Assembly: GCF_016859125.1 (NCBI RefSeq)
Contig: NZ_CP069338.1
Span: 5,023,501 to 5,087,500, forward strand
DNA from: Archangium violaceum
GTDB lineage: Bacteria > Myxococcota > Myxococcia > Myxococcales > Myxococcaceae
Direction of reading: 5' to 3'
Length of the DNA stretch: 64,000 bases
Shown here in pieces: positions 14,660 to 33,147 of this stretch. The position numbers were made by a program, and so were the translations under genes. Numbering within the stretch: the stretch's first letter is position 1; each line of letters begins with the position of its first letter. The notes below the pieces were generated by a model that saw only the letters and a program-made list of their open reading frames with translations, was not told the origin of the DNA and did not search any database.

Positions 14660-14800
14660 GGGGAGGAAAAGCGCTTCCGCAGGTTGGGAGGGGTGGAGGA
14701 CCGCACGGTGGACGTGCGCCTCATCGCCGCCACGCACCAGGACCTGGCCGAAGCGGTGCGGGCACATCGCTTCCGCGGAGACCTCTACTTCCGCATCACG
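14660..14800 (+). pseudogene. Internal fragment of a sigma-54 activator AAA+ domain
   Basis: Forty-seven codons after an in-frame TAG at 14657 read EEKRFRRLGG, then VDVRLIAATHQDL and RFRGDLYFRIT. These are the hallmark sequences of NtrC-type enhancer-binding proteins (RRLGG, Walker-B-adjacent VDVRxIAAT, and REDLYYRL near sensor 1), so this is a piece of a Walker-type AAA+ activator gene. Neither the flanking AAA+ motifs nor the DNA-binding end is present. It was cut off abruptly at the end of the lipoprotein gene on the other strand, with which it overlaps by 16 bases. Confidence 0.75.
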
Positions 14801-25029: not shown

Positions 25030-25806
25030 ATGGACCAGGCGATCGAGCGCGTCATCGCGCATCTCTCCCGTGCCCGCAGTGTGCTGTTCATCACGGGCGC
25101 TGGAATCTCAGCGGAGTCGGGTGTCCCCACCTACCGCGGCATCGGAGGGCTCTACAACGGCAAGACCACCGACGAGGGCCTGCCCATCGAGGTGGCGCTC
25201 TCGGGGAGCATGTTCCGGCGCCGGCCCGAGCTGACGTGGAATCACATCCACCAGATTGAGCGCGCCTGCCGGGGGGCGACCTTCAACCGCGCCCATGAAA
25301 TCCTGGCGCGCTTCGAGGAGTGCTTCGAGCGCTGCTGGGTGCTCACGCAGAACGTCGACGGCTTCCACCGGGCGGCGGGCTCGAGGAACGTCATCGACAT
25401 CCACGGTGACATCCACGAGCTGCGCTGCACGCAGTGCTCCTTCACCGAGCGCGTGGTGGATTACTCGAGCCTGGAGCCGTGTCCGAACTGCCCGCAATGT
25501 GGCGCGCTGCTGCGCCCCGAGGTCGTGCTCTTCGAGGAGATGCTGCCGCAGATGAAGGTGATGCGCCTCCAGCAGGAGCTCGCGACGGGCTTCGACGTGG
25601 TGTTCTCCATCGGGACCTCGAGCCTGTTCCCCTATATCGACGGGCCCGTGCTCGAGGCGATCGCGCGCAAGCGTCCGACCGTGGAGATCAACCCGGGGAG
25701 CACCGACCTGTCGGAGGTGGTCGACGTGAAGCTCCAGATGGGCGCGGTGGCCGCCTGCGAGGCCTTGTGGGCCGCGCGCGACCGGTGGATGCCTCAGCGC
25801 GGGTAG
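25030..25806 (+). CDS. cobB: Sir2-type NAD-dependent protein deacylase
   Basis: A 258-residue sirtuin. FITGAGISAESGVPTYRG is the NAD-binding loop, TQNVDGFHRAAG the second NAD motif, and the catalytic histidine is in IDIHGDIHEL. The structural zinc site is CTQCSF...CPNCPQCG: two Cys-x2-Cys pairs. VVFSIGTSSLFPY and INPGSTDLS follow. It removes acetyl (and possibly succinyl) groups from lysines with NAD. The presence of Tyr and Arg residues of the class III pattern is not clear, so the acyl preference is open. The start at 25030 is the first ATG with coding sense; the stop overlaps the convergent aminotransferase gene by 13 bases. Confidence 0.9.
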   Translation: MDQAIERVIAHLSRARSVLFITGAGISAESGVPTYRGIGGLYNGKTTDEGLPIEVALSGSMFRRRPELTWNHIHQIERACRGATFNRAHEILARFEECFERCWVLTQNVDGFHRAAGSRNVIDIHGDIHELRCTQCSFTERVVDYSSLEPCPNCPQCGALLRPEVVLFEEMLPQMKVMRLQQELATGFDVVFSIGTSSLFPYIDGPVLEAIARKRPTVEINPGSTDLSEVVDVKLQMGAVAACEALWAARDRWMPQRG

Positions 25807-27032
25807 CGCTCGCGGACGAAGGCCTCCAGCCGATCGAAGGCGGTGGTGAGGATGTCCTCCGGGGGGAGGAAGACCACCCGGAAGTGGGTGGTGCCGGCCT
25901 TCTGCCCGAAGCCGCTGCCGTGGACGAACAGCACGCCCGTGGTGCGCAGCAGCGACAGGACGAAGTCCTCGTCGTTCAGCACGCCGGGCAGCTGGATGCG
26001 GGGCATGGCGTAGAACGCGGCGGCGGGCTCCACCACGGACAGGCCGGGGATGGCGTTGATGCGGCGCACCATCAGGTCGCGCCGGGAGCGCAGCCGCTTC
26101 ATCATCTCCGGGATGTGGTCCTGCGGCCCGTCCAGCGCGGGCGCGATGGCGTACTGCTGCGGGGCCGGACCGCACAGCCGCGCATCCGCCAGCCGCATCA
26201 CCGCGCTCTTGAGCTCCGGCATCAGGTGCGCGTTGTTGAAGACGAGCCATCCCACCCGCCAGCCACACGCCAGGTACGCCTTGGACATGCCGCTGAAGGT
26301 GATGATGGGCACGTCCGTCGCGAGCGACGCGGCGGGCACGTGCGGCTTGTCCTTGTCGTAGAGGAGCTTGTCGTAGATCTCATCCGACAGCACCACCAGC
26401 CCTCGCCGCCGGGCGATCTCCAGCAGGTCCTCCAGCACCTTCCGCTCGAGCACCGCGCCCGTGGGGTTGTTGGGGTTGCACAGCAGGATGGCGCGGGTGC
26501 CGGGCGTGCACAGCGCGTCGATCTCCTCCAGGTCCAGCGACCAGCCGTTCTCCTCGTCGAGCGAGTAGGGCACGCCCTGGGCGCTCAGCCTGGCCATGAG
26601 CGCGTTGTAGAGCGGGTAGCCGGGGCAGGGCAGGAGCACGCGCTCCCCGGGCTCCAGCAGCGCCGTGAGGGCCAGATCGAGCGCCTCGCTGGCCCCCGTG
26701 GAGACCACCACGTCCGCGGGCGTGACACCGGGGATGCCGTTGCGTTGGGCCTCTCGGGCGATGGCCTCGCGCGCCTCCGGGATTCCCGCCGAGGGTGCAT
26801 AGCCGTTGTGCCCGTCCCGCATCGCCCGGTGGACCGCTTCGATCAGGTGCGGCGGGGTCCGGAAGTCGAACTTCAGCGGATCGCCGATGTTCAGGTAGAG
26901 GATCTCCCGTCCCTGCGCCTCCAGGCGGCTCGCTTCGGCCACGACGTTGCGGATGGCGTATCGGACATTCTCGATGTGCTTGGCAGGGCGGACCACGAAA
27001 GCCTCGGTGTTGGGCGGAGTCTTCCTTATCAC
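25794..27032 (-). CDS. alaA: Alanine-type aminotransferase (class I/II, PLP-dependent)
   Basis: A 412-residue pyridoxal-phosphate enzyme, most like the AlaA/AlaT alanine transaminases that convert pyruvate and glutamate to alanine. STGASEALDLALTALL is the cofactor phosphate loop, LCNPNNPTGAVLERK a family signature, SDEIYDKLLYD carries the Asp/Tyr contacts, SGMSKAYLACGWRVGW holds the Schiff-base lysine, and GTTHFRVVFL holds the substrate-carboxylate arginine. GTG 27032 is preferred over the distal ATG 27149 because GGAGGGAG lies upstream and the extra N-terminal residues would be encoded by palindromic DNA. The palindromic pair at 27091-27131 likely regulates it. Confidence 0.88.
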   Translation of the reverse strand: MIRKTPPNTEAFVVRPAKHIENVRYAIRNVVAEASRLEAQGREILYLNIGDPLKFDFRTPPHLIEAVHRAMRDGHNGYAPSAGIPEAREAIAREAQRNGIPGVTPADVVVSTGASEALDLALTALLEPGERVLLPCPGYPLYNALMARLSAQGVPYSLDEENGWSLDLEEIDALCTPGTRAILLCNPNNPTGAVLERKVLEDLLEIARRRGLVVLSDEIYDKLLYDKDKPHVPAASLATDVPIITFSGMSKAYLACGWRVGWLVFNNAHLMPELKSAVMRLADARLCGPAPQQYAIAPALDGPQDHIPEMMKRLRSRRDLMVRRINAIPGLSVVEPAAAFYAMPRIQLPGVLNDEDFVLSLLRTTGVLFVHGSGFGQKAGTTHFRVVFLPPEDILTTAFDRLEAFVRERYPR

Positions 27033-27090: not shown

Positions 27091-27131
27091 CTGTCCTGGA
27101 CCAGGACAGGGGTGTCCTGGTTCGGGACACC
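27091..27131. promoter_or_regulatory. Two tandem TGTCC-N7-GGACA palindromes
   Basis: CTGTCCTGGACCAGGACAG (27091-27109) is a perfect 9-bp-arm palindrome and GGTGTCCTGGTTCGGGACACC (27111-27131) has 7-bp arms. Both contain TGTCC, seven bases, then GGACA, and both spacers begin TGG. The centres are about 21 bases apart, two helix turns. They lie 59-99 bases upstream of the aminotransferase GTG and look like a dimer-of-dimers operator. Confidence 0.65.
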
Positions 27132-27195
27132 GTTGCGCGTGCCTCCCAAAGGCTCGGAACTCCAACGGATTCATGTGGAACTGTCAGGGTTCTTT

Positions 27196-27216
27196 ACATT
27201 CTCGATTCTTGAATGT
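27196..27216. promoter_or_regulatory. ACATTC-N9-GAATGT inverted repeat
   Basis: A perfect 6-bp inverted repeat with nine bases between, in a locally AT-rich patch (TTTACATTCTCG). It lies in the 460-base space between the aminotransferase and the RND operon and could be a second operator or part of a promoter for either side. Confidence 0.35.
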
Positions 27217-27355
27217 GGAGCATTGACGCACCATGTCTGAAAAGCGGCCCTAATCATATCGAGGGGTTGGGCTCTGGCATGGAGCGTGCTCTAGGGAGCC
27301 CTACACCGTGACATGACCCGTCAACTCCTCCTCCTCTGACGGTTCGATGTGGTGC

Positions 27356-27402
27356 GCGGCGGGCGATCCTTTGCCAGAGGGAACGCCCGCCGCTGTTTTT
27401 TT
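27356..27402 (+). terminator. Strong intrinsic terminator upstream of the RND operon
   Basis: GCGGCGGGCG (27356-27365) and CGCCCGCCGC (27384-27393) form a perfect 10-bp stem with an 18-base loop, followed by TGTTTTTTTG. This is a textbook Rho-independent terminator for plus-strand transcription, yet no plus-strand gene ends nearby: Sir2 ends 1.5 kb upstream. It lies 93 bases before the first efflux gene. Confidence 0.8.
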
Positions 27403-27494: not shown

Positions 27495-28667
27495 ATGGTT
27501 CCGAACGAACAACGCTCCCGTGGCTCCTGGGCCAGGAAGCTCGGTCTTCTCGCCGTCATCGTGCTCGCCGTCGCCGCTGTCTGGTGGTGGCTCGGCGGTA
27601 CCTCGAAGCCACGCACGGCGGCGGGGCCGCCGACCGTCCCGGTGGTCGTGGAGCAGGTCTCCCGCCGCGACATTCCCCACCTCATTCGTGGCATCGGCAC
27701 CGTCCAGTCGCTCCACAGTGTCGTGGTCCGTACACAGGTGGATGGCCTCCTCACCGAGCTCGCCTTCAAGGAAGGACAGCGGGTCAACCGGGGCGATCTG
27801 CTCGCCCGCATCGACGACCGCGCGATCGTCGCCGAGGTCGAGCAGGCCCGTGCCGAGAAGGCTCGCAACGAGGCGCAACTCCACGCCGCGCGGATCGACC
27901 TCGAGAGATACGGCAACCTCGTTCGTGACGAGGCGATCTCTCGCCAGGCGGTGGATCAACAGAAGGCCCAGGTCGCGCAGCTCGAGGCGACCCTGCGCGC
28001 CAATGAGGCGACCCTCGCCGCGGCCCAGGTCCGGCTGTCGTATACGCGCATCACCTCGCCGGTCACCGGGCGGGTCGGCCTGCGTCGCGTCGACCCCGGC
28101 AACGTCGTCCGCACGTCCGATGCCCAGGGGCTCGTCACCGTCACCCAGATCGATCCCATCGCGGTGGTCTTCTCCCTGCCCCAGGAGGAGCTTCCGCGGC
28201 TCCAGGCCCTGCTGCGAGAGCCGGCCGCCGCGCCCGTGACCGCGTTCGATCGCGCCGGAGGGGCCGTGCTGGCCGAGGGACGCCTGACGATGATCGACAA
28301 CCAGATCGATCCCACGACGGGCACCATTCCCCTCAAGGCGGAGTTTCCCAATGCCGAGGGCACGCTCTGGCCGGGCCAGTTCGTCACTGTCGAGCTCAAG
28401 GCTGGCGAGAGCCAGGGCGCCACCGTCGTCTCGGCGCGCGCCGTCCAGCGGGGACTGCAGGGCTCGTTCGTGTTTCGTGTCGATGAGTCCAAGGCCACCG
28501 TCGTTCCCGTCACCGTGGCCTATGCGGACGATGAGCTCGCCGTCGTGACGTCGGGGGTGGCACCGGGCGACACGGTGGTCAGCGATGGGCACTCACGCCT
28601 CAAGGCGGGGAGCGCGGTGAAGATCTCCCCACCCGCTGGCGGGGCCGCCAAAGGAGCGTCCCGGTGA
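27495..28667 (+). CDS. RND efflux system, periplasmic adaptor (MFP/HlyD family)
   Basis: A 390-residue adaptor of the MdtA/MexA type. It begins with a transmembrane anchor (LGLLAVIVLAVAAVWWWLGG, residues about 13-33), then the barrel-sandwich strand VVRTQVDGLLTELAFKEGQR, VNRGDLLARIDDR, a coiled-coil hairpin (EVEQARAEKARNEAQLHAAR), a second lipoyl half SYTRITSPVTGRVG, and a beta-barrel and membrane-proximal domain (RLTMIDNQIDPTTGTIPLKA, GQFVTVEL). It should connect the RND pump to the outer-membrane channel. ATG 27495 is used as start because the previous ATG lies in non-coding sequence. First gene of a five-gene operon whose members overlap by 1-4 bases. Confidence 0.92.
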   Translation: MVPNEQRSRGSWARKLGLLAVIVLAVAAVWWWLGGTSKPRTAAGPPTVPVVVEQVSRRDIPHLIRGIGTVQSLHSVVVRTQVDGLLTELAFKEGQRVNRGDLLARIDDRAIVAEVEQARAEKARNEAQLHAARIDLERYGNLVRDEAISRQAVDQQKAQVAQLEATLRANEATLAAAQVRLSYTRITSPVTGRVGLRRVDPGNVVRTSDAQGLVTVTQIDPIAVVFSLPQEELPRLQALLREPAAAPVTAFDRAGGAVLAEGRLTMIDNQIDPTTGTIPLKAEFPNAEGTLWPGQFVTVELKAGESQGATVVSARAVQRGLQGSFVFRVDESKATVVPVTVAYADDELAVVTSGVAPGDTVVSDGHSRLKAGSAVKISPPAGGAAKGASR

Positions 28668-31600
28668 TTCATTCCAATCGCGGCATCTCCAGTTGGTTCG
28701 TGGTCCGTCCGGTCGCCACGGCCCTGCTCACGGTGGGCATCCTCCTCCTCGGCTTCTTCGCCTACCCGCGCCTGCCGGTCGCTCCGCTCCCTGAGGCGGA
28801 GTTCCCGACGATCCAGATCAGCGCGAACCTGCCCGGCGCGAGCGCCGAGACCATGGCCTCCGCCGTGGCGACGCCCCTGGAGGTCCAGTTCAGCGCCATC
28901 CCCGGCATCACGGAGATGACGTCGACGAGCGCCCTCGGTACGACCTCCATCACCCTGCAGTTCGACCTCGAGAAGAGCATCGACACCGCGGCCCAGGAGG
29001 TACAGGCCGCGATCAACGCCGCCTCCGGCCGTCTCCCGTCGGAGATGCCGAACATGCCCACCTGGCGGAAGGTCAACCCGAACGACAGCCCCATCTTCGT
29101 CCTGCGCGTCCAGTCGGACCTGATGCCTCTCACCCAGCTCAGTGACATCGCGGAGACGCAGCTCGCACGGCAGCTCAGCCAGATCTCCGGTGTGGCGGAG
29201 ATCAACCTGACCGGCCAGCAACGTCCCGCCCTGCGCATCCAGGCGTCGCCCGCGCGGCTGGCGTCCCAGGGACTGACGCTCGCGGACATTCGCACGGCGG
29301 TGCAGGCGGCGAGCGTCAACCAGGCGAAGGGCGCCCTCTTCGGTGATACCCGCGTCTCGACGCTCTCGACCAATGATCAGATCTTCCGCCCCGAGGACTA
29401 TGACGACCTCATCGTCGCCTACCGCGACGGCGCGCCGGTCCGTCTCCGTGACGTCGCGCGGGTGAGCGCGGGCGCGGAGAACGACTACGTCCAGGCCTGG
29501 CAGAACGGCAAGCCAGGGCTCAACTTCATCATCCGCCGCCAGCCGGGTGCGAACATCGTCGAGACCGCCGACCGGATTCGAGAGGCCCTCCCTCGTCTCG
29601 CGGAGCAGCTCCCCGCGAGCGTCGAGATCGACATCCTCAATGATCGCACGCGGACGATCCGCTCCTCGCAGCACGAGGTCCAGCTCACCCTCGTCATCAC
29701 GGTCGCCCTCGTGGTCCTGATCATGGGGCTCTTCCTGCGGCAGGTGTCGGCCACGCTCATCGTCGGCGCGGTGCTCCTGGTGGCCCTGGTCTCGACCTTC
29801 GCCGCGATGTACGTGCTCGGCTTCAGCTTGAACAACCTCACGCTGGTGGCGCTCGTCATCGCCGTGGGCTTCGTCGTGGACGACGCGATCGTCGTGGTGG
29901 AGAACATCCACCGGCATCTCGAGGCCGGGATGGACCAGCGGGAGGCGGCCCTCGCCGGCTCCGCGGAGATCGGCTTCACGGTCATGTCGATCAGCCTCTC
30001 GCTCATCGCTGCGTTCATCCCGCTGCTGTTCATGGGGGGCGTCGTCGGGCGCCTGTTCAGCGAGTTCGCGATGACGGTGACGGCGGCGATCCTCTTGTCG
30101 GTGGTGGCGTCGCTGACGCTCGCGCCGATGCTCGCGGCGCGGTTCATGAAGCCTCTGTCCCATGGCCATGACGGCTCGGGGGGTGGGTTCGCGAAGCGCC
30201 TCATCGACGCGTATGACCGGACCCTGAAGTGGGCGTTGGAGCATCAGCGGCTCACCCTGCTCGGCTTCGGGCTGGCACTGGCCGCCGCCGTCGCCAGCTA
30301 TGTGTATGTCCCCAAGGGGTTCTTCCCGGTGCAGGATACGGCCTTCGTCCTGGGCACGACCCAGGCGGCGCAGGACATCTCGTACGAGGACATGATCGCC
30401 AAACACGCCGCGCTCGCGGAGATCGTCGCGCAGGATCCGGCGGTGCAGGAGTACGCGAACGCCGTGGGGGCCACGGGCGGCAGTCAGAGCACTTCCAGTG
30501 GCCGCTTCTGGATCGTCCTCAAGGATCGCTCGGACCGGGATGTCTCGGTCTCCGAGTTCATCGACCGGCTGCGGCCGAAGCTCGCCCAGGTGCCCGGCAT
30601 CATGCTCTACCTCCGCGCGGCGCAGGACATCAACCTCGGTGGTGGCCCCGCTCGCGCGCAGTACACGTATGCGCTGAAGAGCAGCGACGGCGCCATGCTG
30701 TCCGAATGGGCGGAGACGCTCACGGCGAAGCTCGCCCAGCTCCCGCAGCTCCGCGACGTGTCGAACGACCAGCAGCTCGGCGCCAGCGTGACCCGTCTCA
30801 CGATCGATCGGGCCGCGGCGGCTCGTTTCGGCATCTCGGCCCGCGATATCGACCAGGCGCTCTACGACGCCTTCGGGCAACGGCAGATCAACGAATACCA
30901 GACGGAGGTCAACCAGTACCGGGTGATCCTCGAGATCGACAAGCAGCAGCGAGGCACCTCGCAGAGCCTCGCCTACCTCTACATCCGGTCACCCCGGACG
31001 GGCGAGGTGGTGCCCCTCTCCGCGGTCGCGAAGCTCGAGCCCCTGACGACGGGACCCCTGTCCATCAGCCACAACGGCATGTTCCCGTCCGTGAACATCT
31101 CCTTCAACCTGGCGCCGGGTTCGGCGCTCGGAGATGCGGTCGCGGCCATCGAGCAGGCCGAGGCGGAGATCGGAATGCCCGCCGCGATCACCCGCAACTT
31201 CCAGGGCACCGCGCGCGGCTTCCAGGACTCCCTGGCGAGCCAGCCGTTCCTGATCCTCGCCGCGCTCCTCGCGGTCTACATCATCCTCGGCGTCCTCTAT
31301 GAGAGCTTCGTGCACCCGCTGACGATCCTCTCGACCCTTCCCTCGGCGGGGCTCGGCGCGATCCTCCTCCTCTGGGTGATGGGGCACGACTTCTCGGTGA
31401 TGGCGATGATTGGCATCGTGCTCCTCATTGGCATCGTGAAGAAGAACGGCATCCTCATGGTCGACTTCGCGCTCGACGCACAACGGACGCGTGGGTTGTC
31501 GCCTCGTGAGGCGGTCTATGAGGCCTGTCTGGTCCGCTTCCGGCCCATCATGATGACGACGCTCGCCGCGCTCCTCGGCGGCATTCCCCTCATGCTGGGC

Positions 31601-31762
31601 TTCGGCACCGGGGCCGAGCTCCGGCAGCCATTGGGTATCGCGATCGTGGGCGGCCTGCTCGTCAGCCAGGTCCTGACGCTCTATTCGACGCCCGTCGTGT
31701 ACCTGGCGCTCGATCGTCTCTTCACGGAACTGCCCAAGCCCTCGGAACTGGAGGCGACGTGA
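28664..31762 (+). CDS. RND efflux pump, inner-membrane permease
   Basis: A 1032-residue proton-driven exporter of the hydrophobe/amphiphile RND class, close in organisation to MdtB/MdtC. Two repeated halves each carry six helices and a large periplasmic domain. The proton relay is visible as VVDDAIVVVENI with Asp406 and Asp407 in the fourth helix of the first half. The second half has the matching helix MVDFALDAQRTRG with the MIGIVLLIGIVKKNG loop that precedes it. It starts with GTG at 28664, overlapping the adaptor gene by four bases. Members of this class usually export drugs, bile-salt-like or siderophore compounds; substrate cannot be read here. Confidence 0.93.
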   Translation: MIHSNRGISSWFVVRPVATALLTVGILLLGFFAYPRLPVAPLPEAEFPTIQISANLPGASAETMASAVATPLEVQFSAIPGITEMTSTSALGTTSITLQFDLEKSIDTAAQEVQAAINAASGRLPSEMPNMPTWRKVNPNDSPIFVLRVQSDLMPLTQLSDIAETQLARQLSQISGVAEINLTGQQRPALRIQASPARLASQGLTLADIRTAVQAASVNQAKGALFGDTRVSTLSTNDQIFRPEDYDDLIVAYRDGAPVRLRDVARVSAGAENDYVQAWQNGKPGLNFIIRRQPGANIVETADRIREALPRLAEQLPASVEIDILNDRTRTIRSSQHEVQLTLVITVALVVLIMGLFLRQVSATLIVGAVLLVALVSTFAAMYVLGFSLNNLTLVALVIAVGFVVDDAIVVVENIHRHLEAGMDQREAALAGSAEIGFTVMSISLSLIAAFIPLLFMGGVVGRLFSEFAMTVTAAILLSVVASLTLAPMLAARFMKPLSHGHDGSGGGFAKRLIDAYDRTLKWALEHQRLTLLGFGLALAAAVASYVYVPKGFFPVQDTAFVLGTTQAAQDISYEDMIAKHAALAEIVAQDPAVQEYANAVGATGGSQSTSSGRFWIVLKDRSDRDVSVSEFIDRLRPKLAQVPGIMLYLRAAQDINLGGGPARAQYTYALKSSDGAMLSEWAETLTAKLAQLPQLRDVSNDQQLGASVTRLTIDRAAAARFGISARDIDQALYDAFGQRQINEYQTEVNQYRVILEIDKQQRGTSQSLAYLYIRSPRTGEVVPLSAVAKLEPLTTGPLSISHNGMFPSVNISFNLAPGSALGDAVAAIEQAEAEIGMPAAITRNFQGTARGFQDSLASQPFLILAALLAVYIILGVLYESFVHPLTILSTLPSAGLGAILLLWVMGHDFSVMAMIGIVLLIGIVKKNGILMVDFALDAQRTRGLSPREAVYEACLVRFRPIMMTTLAALLGGIPLMLGFGTGAELRQPLGIAIVGGLLVSQVLTLYSTPVVYLALDRLFTELPKPSELEAT

Positions 31763-33147
31763 TGCGCCGGCCCCTGAGCTTCATTGCCCTGCTCGTTGTC
31801 ACCAGCTGCGCGAGCTCGACCGCGCCGACGCTTCGTCCCTCCGAGCTCCAGGCGGAGTGGGAGGGGGCTCCCTCATCGGCTCCCAGCTCGCCAGTCGACG
31901 CGGCGTGGTGGCGGTCGTTCGGCGATCCGGTGCTCGATGAGCTGATCGCCATGGCCGAGCAGCGGAACCTGGATCTGCGCATCGCCGATGCGCGAATCCG
32001 CGAGGCACGCGCGCTGCGTGAGGGGTCGCGGGCAGTGCTCTTCCCCCAGCTCAACGGCACCGCGGGGATCAGCAGCGGCCGGACCGCGATGCTCAACGCG
32101 GAACGGACTGCCGCCACGGTCGGCGTCGAGGCCAGCTGGGAGGTCGACGTTTTCGGGCGTCTGCGCAACGAGGCTCGCGCCGCGGATGCGGTCTGGACCG
32201 CGACCGTGGCCGTGCGCGATGGGGTGCGGCTCGCGCTGGTCGCCGAGGTGGCACGGGCCTACCTGGAGTACCGCCTCTATCGCACCCAGCACACCATCGC
32301 CGAGGCGAACGCGAAGGCCGCGGAGGAGACGCTTCGGATCGCTCGGGCGCGGTTCGAGCAGGGGGTCTCCAGCCGCCTCGACGTCGAGCGCACCCTCACG
32401 GCCCTGGGTGAGACTCGCGCCCGCGTCGCGCAGATCGTGGAGCTCGCCGAGTCCTCGCGCCACCGCCTCGTCTTGCTTCTCGCCACGACTCCGGCTGAAC
32501 TCGGGGGAGTGCTCCCCGAAACCGGCACCCTCCCGAGCGCGAGCGCGGTCGGCGTGCTCCTCGCGCCCACGGAAGTCATCAACCAGCGGCCCGATGTCCG
32601 CGCGGCGGAGGCCCAGCTGCTCGCGGCGGTCGCCCGGCGCGAGGCGGCGGAGGCCCTCCGTTATCCCCGCATCACCCTCGCGAGCATGCTCGGACTCCAG
32701 AGTGGCACCGAGGTGACCGCCTTCCTGTCGGGTGGCTCCCTGCTCTGGTCGCTCGGTGCGAACCTGCTCGCGCCCCTCCTCGACTTCGGACGCATTCGCG
32801 CCACGATCGACGCCGCGGACGCGAGACAGGAGCAGGCCTATCTGAGCTATGAGCTGACCGCGCGCGCCGGACTTCAGGAGGTCCAGACGGCGCTCATCCT
32901 CTACACCCAGGGAGAGAGCCGGCGGAGCGAGCTCGCCGCCGCCACCGAGTCGGCACGCAGGGCCGCCGGGCTCGCGCGCCGGCAGTACGCGGAGGGGACG
33001 CTTTCGTTGCTGGAGGTCCTCGACGCCGAGCGCACCCTCTACGCGCTCGAGCTGCAGGCGGTGCAGGCGACCGCGGATGTGTCGCTGCGCCTCGTACGCC
33101 TCTACCAGACCATGGGACTCATGCCCCCGAACCAGGAGACGGCATGA
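31762..33147 (+). CDS. Outer-membrane efflux lipoprotein (NodT/TolC family)
   Basis: A 461-residue outer-membrane channel of the NodT type. The signal [15 protein letters not shown] provides a lipobox cysteine, then [19 protein letters not shown] and [20 protein letters not shown] open the coiled-coil barrel; this is repeated in the second half ([39 protein letters not shown]). The trimer would form the tunnel for the preceding pump. ATG 31762 overlaps the pump's TGA by one base. Together with the adaptor and pump it makes a complete tripartite exporter in a single operon. Confidence 0.92.

Follow-up and report, generated by a model that had tools for sequence, protein, structure and literature searches.

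A tandem of palindromic TGTCC-N7-GGACA boxes in the predatory soil bacterium Archangium is very probably the enhancer (upstream activating sequence, UAS) of an NtrC-type enhancer-binding protein (EBP) that drives a regulon of secreted hydrolases together with a new small RNA (sRNA), and not a switch of the adjacent aminotransferase gene. The stretch of DNA analyzed here, termed the window, comprises 64,000 nucleotides (G000:C1:5023501-5087500) of a single-contig genome of 12.68 Mb. It contains only two exact matches to TGTCC-N7-GGACA, the distal palindrome TGTCCTGGACCAGGACA (27092..27108) and the proximal palindrome TGTCCTGGTTCGGGACA (27113..27129), neither of which has an assigned strand. The palindromes are separated by 4 bp and their centres lie 21 bp, i.e. 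two helical turns, apart. These exact matches confirmed the description in the earlier note of two palindromes with identical arms and N7 spacing, about 21 bases apart on one face of the helix. Single palindromes with one mismatch were found in the window at the frequency expected by chance. An origin of the tandem itself from chance palindromes was rejected because of its conservation in six genomes and its spacing to a promoter.

The genome search for TGTCC-N7-GGACA proposed in the earlier note was informative for the tandem but not for the single pattern. The latter occurs at 35 places genome-wide versus 11 for the reversed control, and is nearly uninformative because about 20 of the 35 are copies of an unrelated dispersed GC-rich repeat with the core TGTCCGACWGTCGGACA. 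In contrast, the exact tandem TGTCS-N7-SGACA-N4-TGTCS-N7-SGACA is restricted to two loci in 12.68 Mb, the window locus and C1:480716-480753, both of which stand upstream of a sigma54-type promoter. The dispersed repeat, whose core lies inside flanking CCTCCGG and CCGGAGG arms, was seen at L001, L002, L006, L007, L009, L011, L012, L014, and L015 (positions 1501-1517) and was classed as a mobile or REP-like element.

Sigma54 promoters carry a GG-N10-GC signature resembling TGGCACG-N4-TTGCW, and those activated by EBPs are preceded by a dyad UAS, usually in two copies, some 80-200 bp upstream. Both elements are present at the window locus, and protease genes show a matching geometry. The promoter TGGCATG-GAGC-GTGCT (TGGCATGGAGCGTGCT; 27275..27290, plus strand, GG at 27276-27277 and GC at 27288-27289) lies 146 bp downstream of the box and is directed away from the aminotransferase gene. 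In all six Archangium genomes the tandem is followed after 144-146 bp by a sigma54 promoter, TGGCAYG-N4-GTGCT, with identical core positions. Mean pairwise identity among the six loci was 1.00 in the sigma54 core and 0.94 in the palindrome arms, 0.60 between box and promoter, 0.54 in the N7 cores, and 0.20 towards the aminotransferase. In all six genomes the boxes remain linked to the sigma54 core and the RNA, although the flanking genes vary on both sides. Between the box and the sRNA promoter, an inverted repeat CTGACGCACCGGGTCAG is conserved in G001, G002, and G004 and degenerate in the window.

The RNA predicted downstream of this promoter spans about 100 nt (27301..27402, plus strand), with its 5'-end placed about 12 nt past the -12 GC element and its 3'-end at a T-run. 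Its first stem-loop (27304..27354, plus strand; predicted fold) exposes a 13-nt loop, ACUCCUCCUCCUC (27324-27336), that is complementary to Shine-Dalgarno sequences, and it is followed by a strong intrinsic terminator (GCGGCGGGCG..CGCCCGCCGC plus T7; 27356..27402, plus strand) conserved in all six genomes. Folding z-scores were -4.75, -4.09, and -4.32, the first being that of the window RNA, which folds 4.75 standard deviations below shuffled sequences. Three base pairs had changed on both sides versus 1.0 +/- 0.8 in shuffles. The loop core CCUCCUCCUC is identical in the copies of G000, G001, G002, and G004. G003 and G005 carry a shorter form with CUCCUC in this place (86-87 nt region, stem GGCCGU-CUCCUC-ACGGCC). 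An 8-codon ATG frame in the G000 RNA (MTRQLLLL) is not kept across the copies, since the loop of G001 carries a 2-nt deletion. With its own promoter, stable structure, intrinsic terminator, and no conserved reading frame, the predicted RNA shows these features of a trans-acting bacterial sRNA.

Searches with the covariance model R1 gave clear matches to this RNA in each of the six Archangium genomes, strong ones in four of them, and only terminator-like chance matches in the other 90 genomes of the family. Weak R1 matches outside Archangium (L096-L108) were rejected as isolated terminators or coding sequence. Hence, the sRNA coupled to the box has so far been seen only in Archangium, although fast divergence could hide it elsewhere because the form in G003 and G005 is already shorter. 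An Rfam search of the window at the gathering threshold gave no match. The CUCCUCCUCCUC loop probably pairs with the Shine-Dalgarno regions of target mRNAs. A search of genome sites for extended complementarity to the loop yielded no convincing target, and predicted duplexes of the RNA with the 5' regions of five protease mRNAs were no better than those with shuffled sequences.

The box is shared by genes for secreted proteases. A sequence-only model, R2, was trained on nine tandem sites, comprising the six sRNA loci and three protease loci of G000, and was searched in the genus, in the family, and with laxer filters in 35 chosen genomes of the family. The top-scoring R2 site in each of the six Archangium genomes is the sRNA tandem, which is among the sites that trained the model. 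Other matches in Archangium precede genes for M4 peptidases, S8 peptidases, M10/M12-like metzincins (Pfam Peptidase_M10/Astacin/M57), and one alpha/beta lipase-like protein. Beyond Archangium, the box precedes metzincins in at least four genera, as assigned by sequence likeness and, for one, tested with Pfam.

At 23 of 28 box loci a sigma54-like promoter followed at a distance of 100-220 bp, versus 0.026 expected per locus from neighbouring sequence. This count is in part not independent because nine sites trained R2, although the model itself included no promoter and most protease cases lie outside its training set. The distances between box and promoter at these 23 loci were 157-159 bp (13 loci), 144-146 bp (8 loci), 132 bp, and 166 bp (one each). 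The values of 132, 145, and 158 bp on which they fall are spaced by about 13 bp and not by 10.5 bp. Five of the 28 box loci had no clear sigma54 site in the expected range; one of these is truncated where its contig ends, and others are single-palindrome or weaker sites. Among 24 further weak box matches, 14 were accompanied by a sigma54-like promoter, 12 of them before metzincin-like lipoproteins and 2 before another gene in genus g7. At the latter two loci (L260 and L270, positions 1501-1540, in G036 and G038), the box-like tandem and sigma54 promoter precede a non-protease gene that looks like the start of phosphoribosylformylglycinamidine synthase. Regulon promoters also share elements between box and sigma54 site, namely an AAnCC...TGGAAT...GGnTTT inverted repeat 15-45 bp past the box, followed by TGTNA and GTGGAGC/GCTCCAC. 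These were seen at about 27140-27240 of the window and at L018, L070, L071, L076, L066, and L068, and possibly mark the binding of another regulator or of a protein that bends DNA.

Enhancers of NtrC-type EBPs are recognised by dyad sites in tandem that keep a constant distance to a sigma54 promoter. This arrangement leads us to infer an EBP that occupies the tandem, loops to the sigma54 polymerase, and switches on both the sRNA and the proteases. Two EBP dimers would sit next to each other on the same helical face of the tandem and assemble into an ATPase ring, and looping of the intervening approximately 145 bp would allow them to activate sigma54 RNA polymerase at 27275-27290. The product would be a small RNA that forms a unit of its own, is about 100 nt long, ends at 27402, and exposes the CUCCUCCUCCUC loop. 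Besides the secreted proteases (metzincin, thermolysin-like M4, and subtilisin-like S8), the same EBP would activate at least one lipase-like protein, so that the RNA may represent the post-transcriptional arm of an extracellular-digestion programme. About 58 EBPs are encoded in G000. A search for the EBP signature around the boxes and in the window found none, and no EBP gene stood next to any box locus. The earlier note had suggested looking for regulator genes that carry the same site, but as a sign of autoregulation the box was absent from each of the 59 EBP loci of G000 that were scanned. PilR was considered as a candidate for binding the box on account of what we take to be its TGTC half-site. 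At 14663-14800 the window contains a sigma54-activator domain fragment (PF00158 positions 118-163) in a 96-codon frame, which looks like a decayed EBP gene.

The earlier note had assigned the boxes to the adjacent aminotransferase gene (25794..26996, minus strand), implying dedicated nitrogen/alanine control if the product is an alanine aminotransferase. A dedicated regulator would then bind about 96 bp ahead of the start codon. We consider this very unlikely. The position upstream of the gene was correct, the boxes lying about 96 bp from a conserved GTG at 26996, where a conserved [GT]TG codon after GAGG forms the inferred start, and in the window genome, G001, and G004 the box indeed stands directly between aminotransferase and sRNA. 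However, a small reading frame in G002 and another gene in G003 and G005 separate the box from the aminotransferase, and in these three genomes box, promoter, and RNA remain together. In G080, which belongs to another genus, the tandem lies just upstream of the gene of a U32 peptidase, a neighbour of the window locus, without an aminotransferase in between; the contig ends ahead of the expected promoter. Furthermore, conservation is lacking in the sequence towards the aminotransferase (0.20), no sigma54-like promoter in the intergenic region of the window faces this gene, and the remaining box targets encode secreted proteases and have no link to nitrogen or alanine. The operator signature that had been called strong is thus a genuine and conserved predicted protein-binding signature, assigned to the wrong target: the motif was conserved in all six Archangium genomes, as the comparison of orthologues suggested in the earlier note had asked, but it tracks the divergent sigma54 promoter and sRNA and not the aminotransferase. 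The latter could still be affected secondarily. It resembles AlaA and tyrosine aminotransferases, and its best NCBIfam model is alanine aminotransferase (426.8 bits, under the cut-off of 534). A search with P0001 gave matches in Archangium, in one Archangiaceae MAG (L120), and mostly in Acidobacteriota, and was uninformative for the box; neither box nor sRNA was seen in L120.

Pxr of Myxococcus xanthus and relatives is an sRNA about 100 nt long that has a sigma54 promoter and is controlled by the NtrC-like regulator PxrR (Nla19) (PMC5568312, PMC5684412). It sits between nla19/pxrR and the orthologue of Mxan_1080, and multiple copies have been reported for Cystobacter (PMC5568312, PMC5684412). 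G000 harbours a pxr-like array of about five copies (L200:3688-5070, i.e. G000:C1:5535487-5536869, within L200 at C1:5531800-5537300), located downstream of an NtrC-type regulator gene that is likely the pxrR/nla19 orthologue. Each copy has a sigma54 promoter and a C7 run, which we take to be a feature of Pxr. We called the array pxr because it combines this run with an adjoining NtrC-type gene, a sigma54 promoter, and several copies as in Cystobacter. Like Pxr, the window RNA is a myxobacterial RNA of about 100 nt with a sigma54 promoter, an upstream enhancer region, stem-loops, and a terminator, and both the pxr promoter of G000 (TGGCATGGNGNGTGCT) and the terminator tail resemble its own. 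Nevertheless, it is very improbable that it is a diverged Pxr copy with boxes bound by PxrR. The pxr array with its C7 run and adjacent regulator lies at another locus, and the window RNA is found between aminotransferase and RND genes, has the CUCCUCCUCCUC loop instead of a C7 run, and has no regulator gene beside it. The boxes upstream of the array, which may be PxrR sites, are of the TGCAGATCTGCAA and CTGCAATGCAG type; the TGTCC tandem, common to the secreted proteases, is absent there. Beyond promoter and terminator, the loop and stem sequences align poorly. Hence, although promoter and terminator are similar, the window RNA falls outside the definition of Pxr because boxes and loop differ.

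That the region controls the MdtABC-like RND efflux operon (periplasmic adaptor at 27498..28667, plus strand, continuing at 28664-31762 and 31759-33147), with the terminator as an attenuator in its leader, is extremely unlikely: the operon begins about 95 bp past the terminator in the same direction in the window genome, but in G001, G002, and G003 the next gene runs in the opposite direction and is the 3'-end of a different RND permease, which argues against a leader, while box, promoter, and RNA are retained there and terminator and T-run are conserved as the RNA end. The operon is thus a separate unit past the sRNA terminator and is not conserved as its 3' neighbour.

The EBP enhancer proposed here belongs to a kind of system that is already known. 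NmpR of M. xanthus acts at GCGCA-N5-TGCGC sites, with 14-15 nt between them, on oxygen-use genes (PMC11841059). In both cases two dyad-symmetric EBP sites stand upstream of a sigma54 promoter, but the window has TGTCC-N7-GGACA, only 4 bp between the sites, and a regulon of proteases and an sRNA. In the LuxO-Qrr system of the Vibrionaceae, two EBP sites likewise drive a sigma54-dependent sRNA, although the UAS is TTGCAWWWTGCAA, luxO is located beside qrr in most clades, and the role is in quorum sensing (PMC10162802). NfeR1 has a sigma70-type promoter and three anti-Shine-Dalgarno hairpins and blocks translation initiation (PMC10746234). It shares with alpha-r14 and the window RNA anti-Shine-Dalgarno loops of the CCUCCUCCC type, whereas the window RNA has a sigma54-type promoter and one such hairpin. 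The complementarity of its loop to Shine-Dalgarno sequences suggests that this RNA blocks translation initiation as NfeR1 does. Against the alpha-r14 model (Rfam RF02344) it scored 26.0 bits, mostly from loop and terminator and below the gathering score of 58.8. Qrr and alpha-r14/NfeR1 are functional analogues of the window RNA. In agreement with the earlier note, we found no characterised regulator described with a TGTCC-N7-GGACA box. The open-access literature held no description matching the motif, the RNA, the regulon, or a myxobacterial protease EBP, and subscription papers might differ; motif, regulon, and RNA thus appear to be undescribed.

The joint activation of digestive proteases in predatory myxobacteria seems to have been little described. 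An enhancer motif that recurs across the family, at a locked spacing from the sigma54 promoters of secreted proteases, offers a direct handle on their regulator. The window sRNA adds a second sigma54-driven RNA in myxobacteria beside Pxr, and suggests how an old regulon can acquire a new RNA, namely one that carries the same enhancer. We tentatively propose that one EBP fires the secreted-protease arsenal of predatory myxobacteria and, in Archangium, simultaneously an anti-Shine-Dalgarno sRNA by which translation is damped, either broadly for competing mRNAs or for the EBP. If true, a feed-forward or feedback loop would couple extracellular digestion to translation control, recently recruited onto a family-wide protease regulon.
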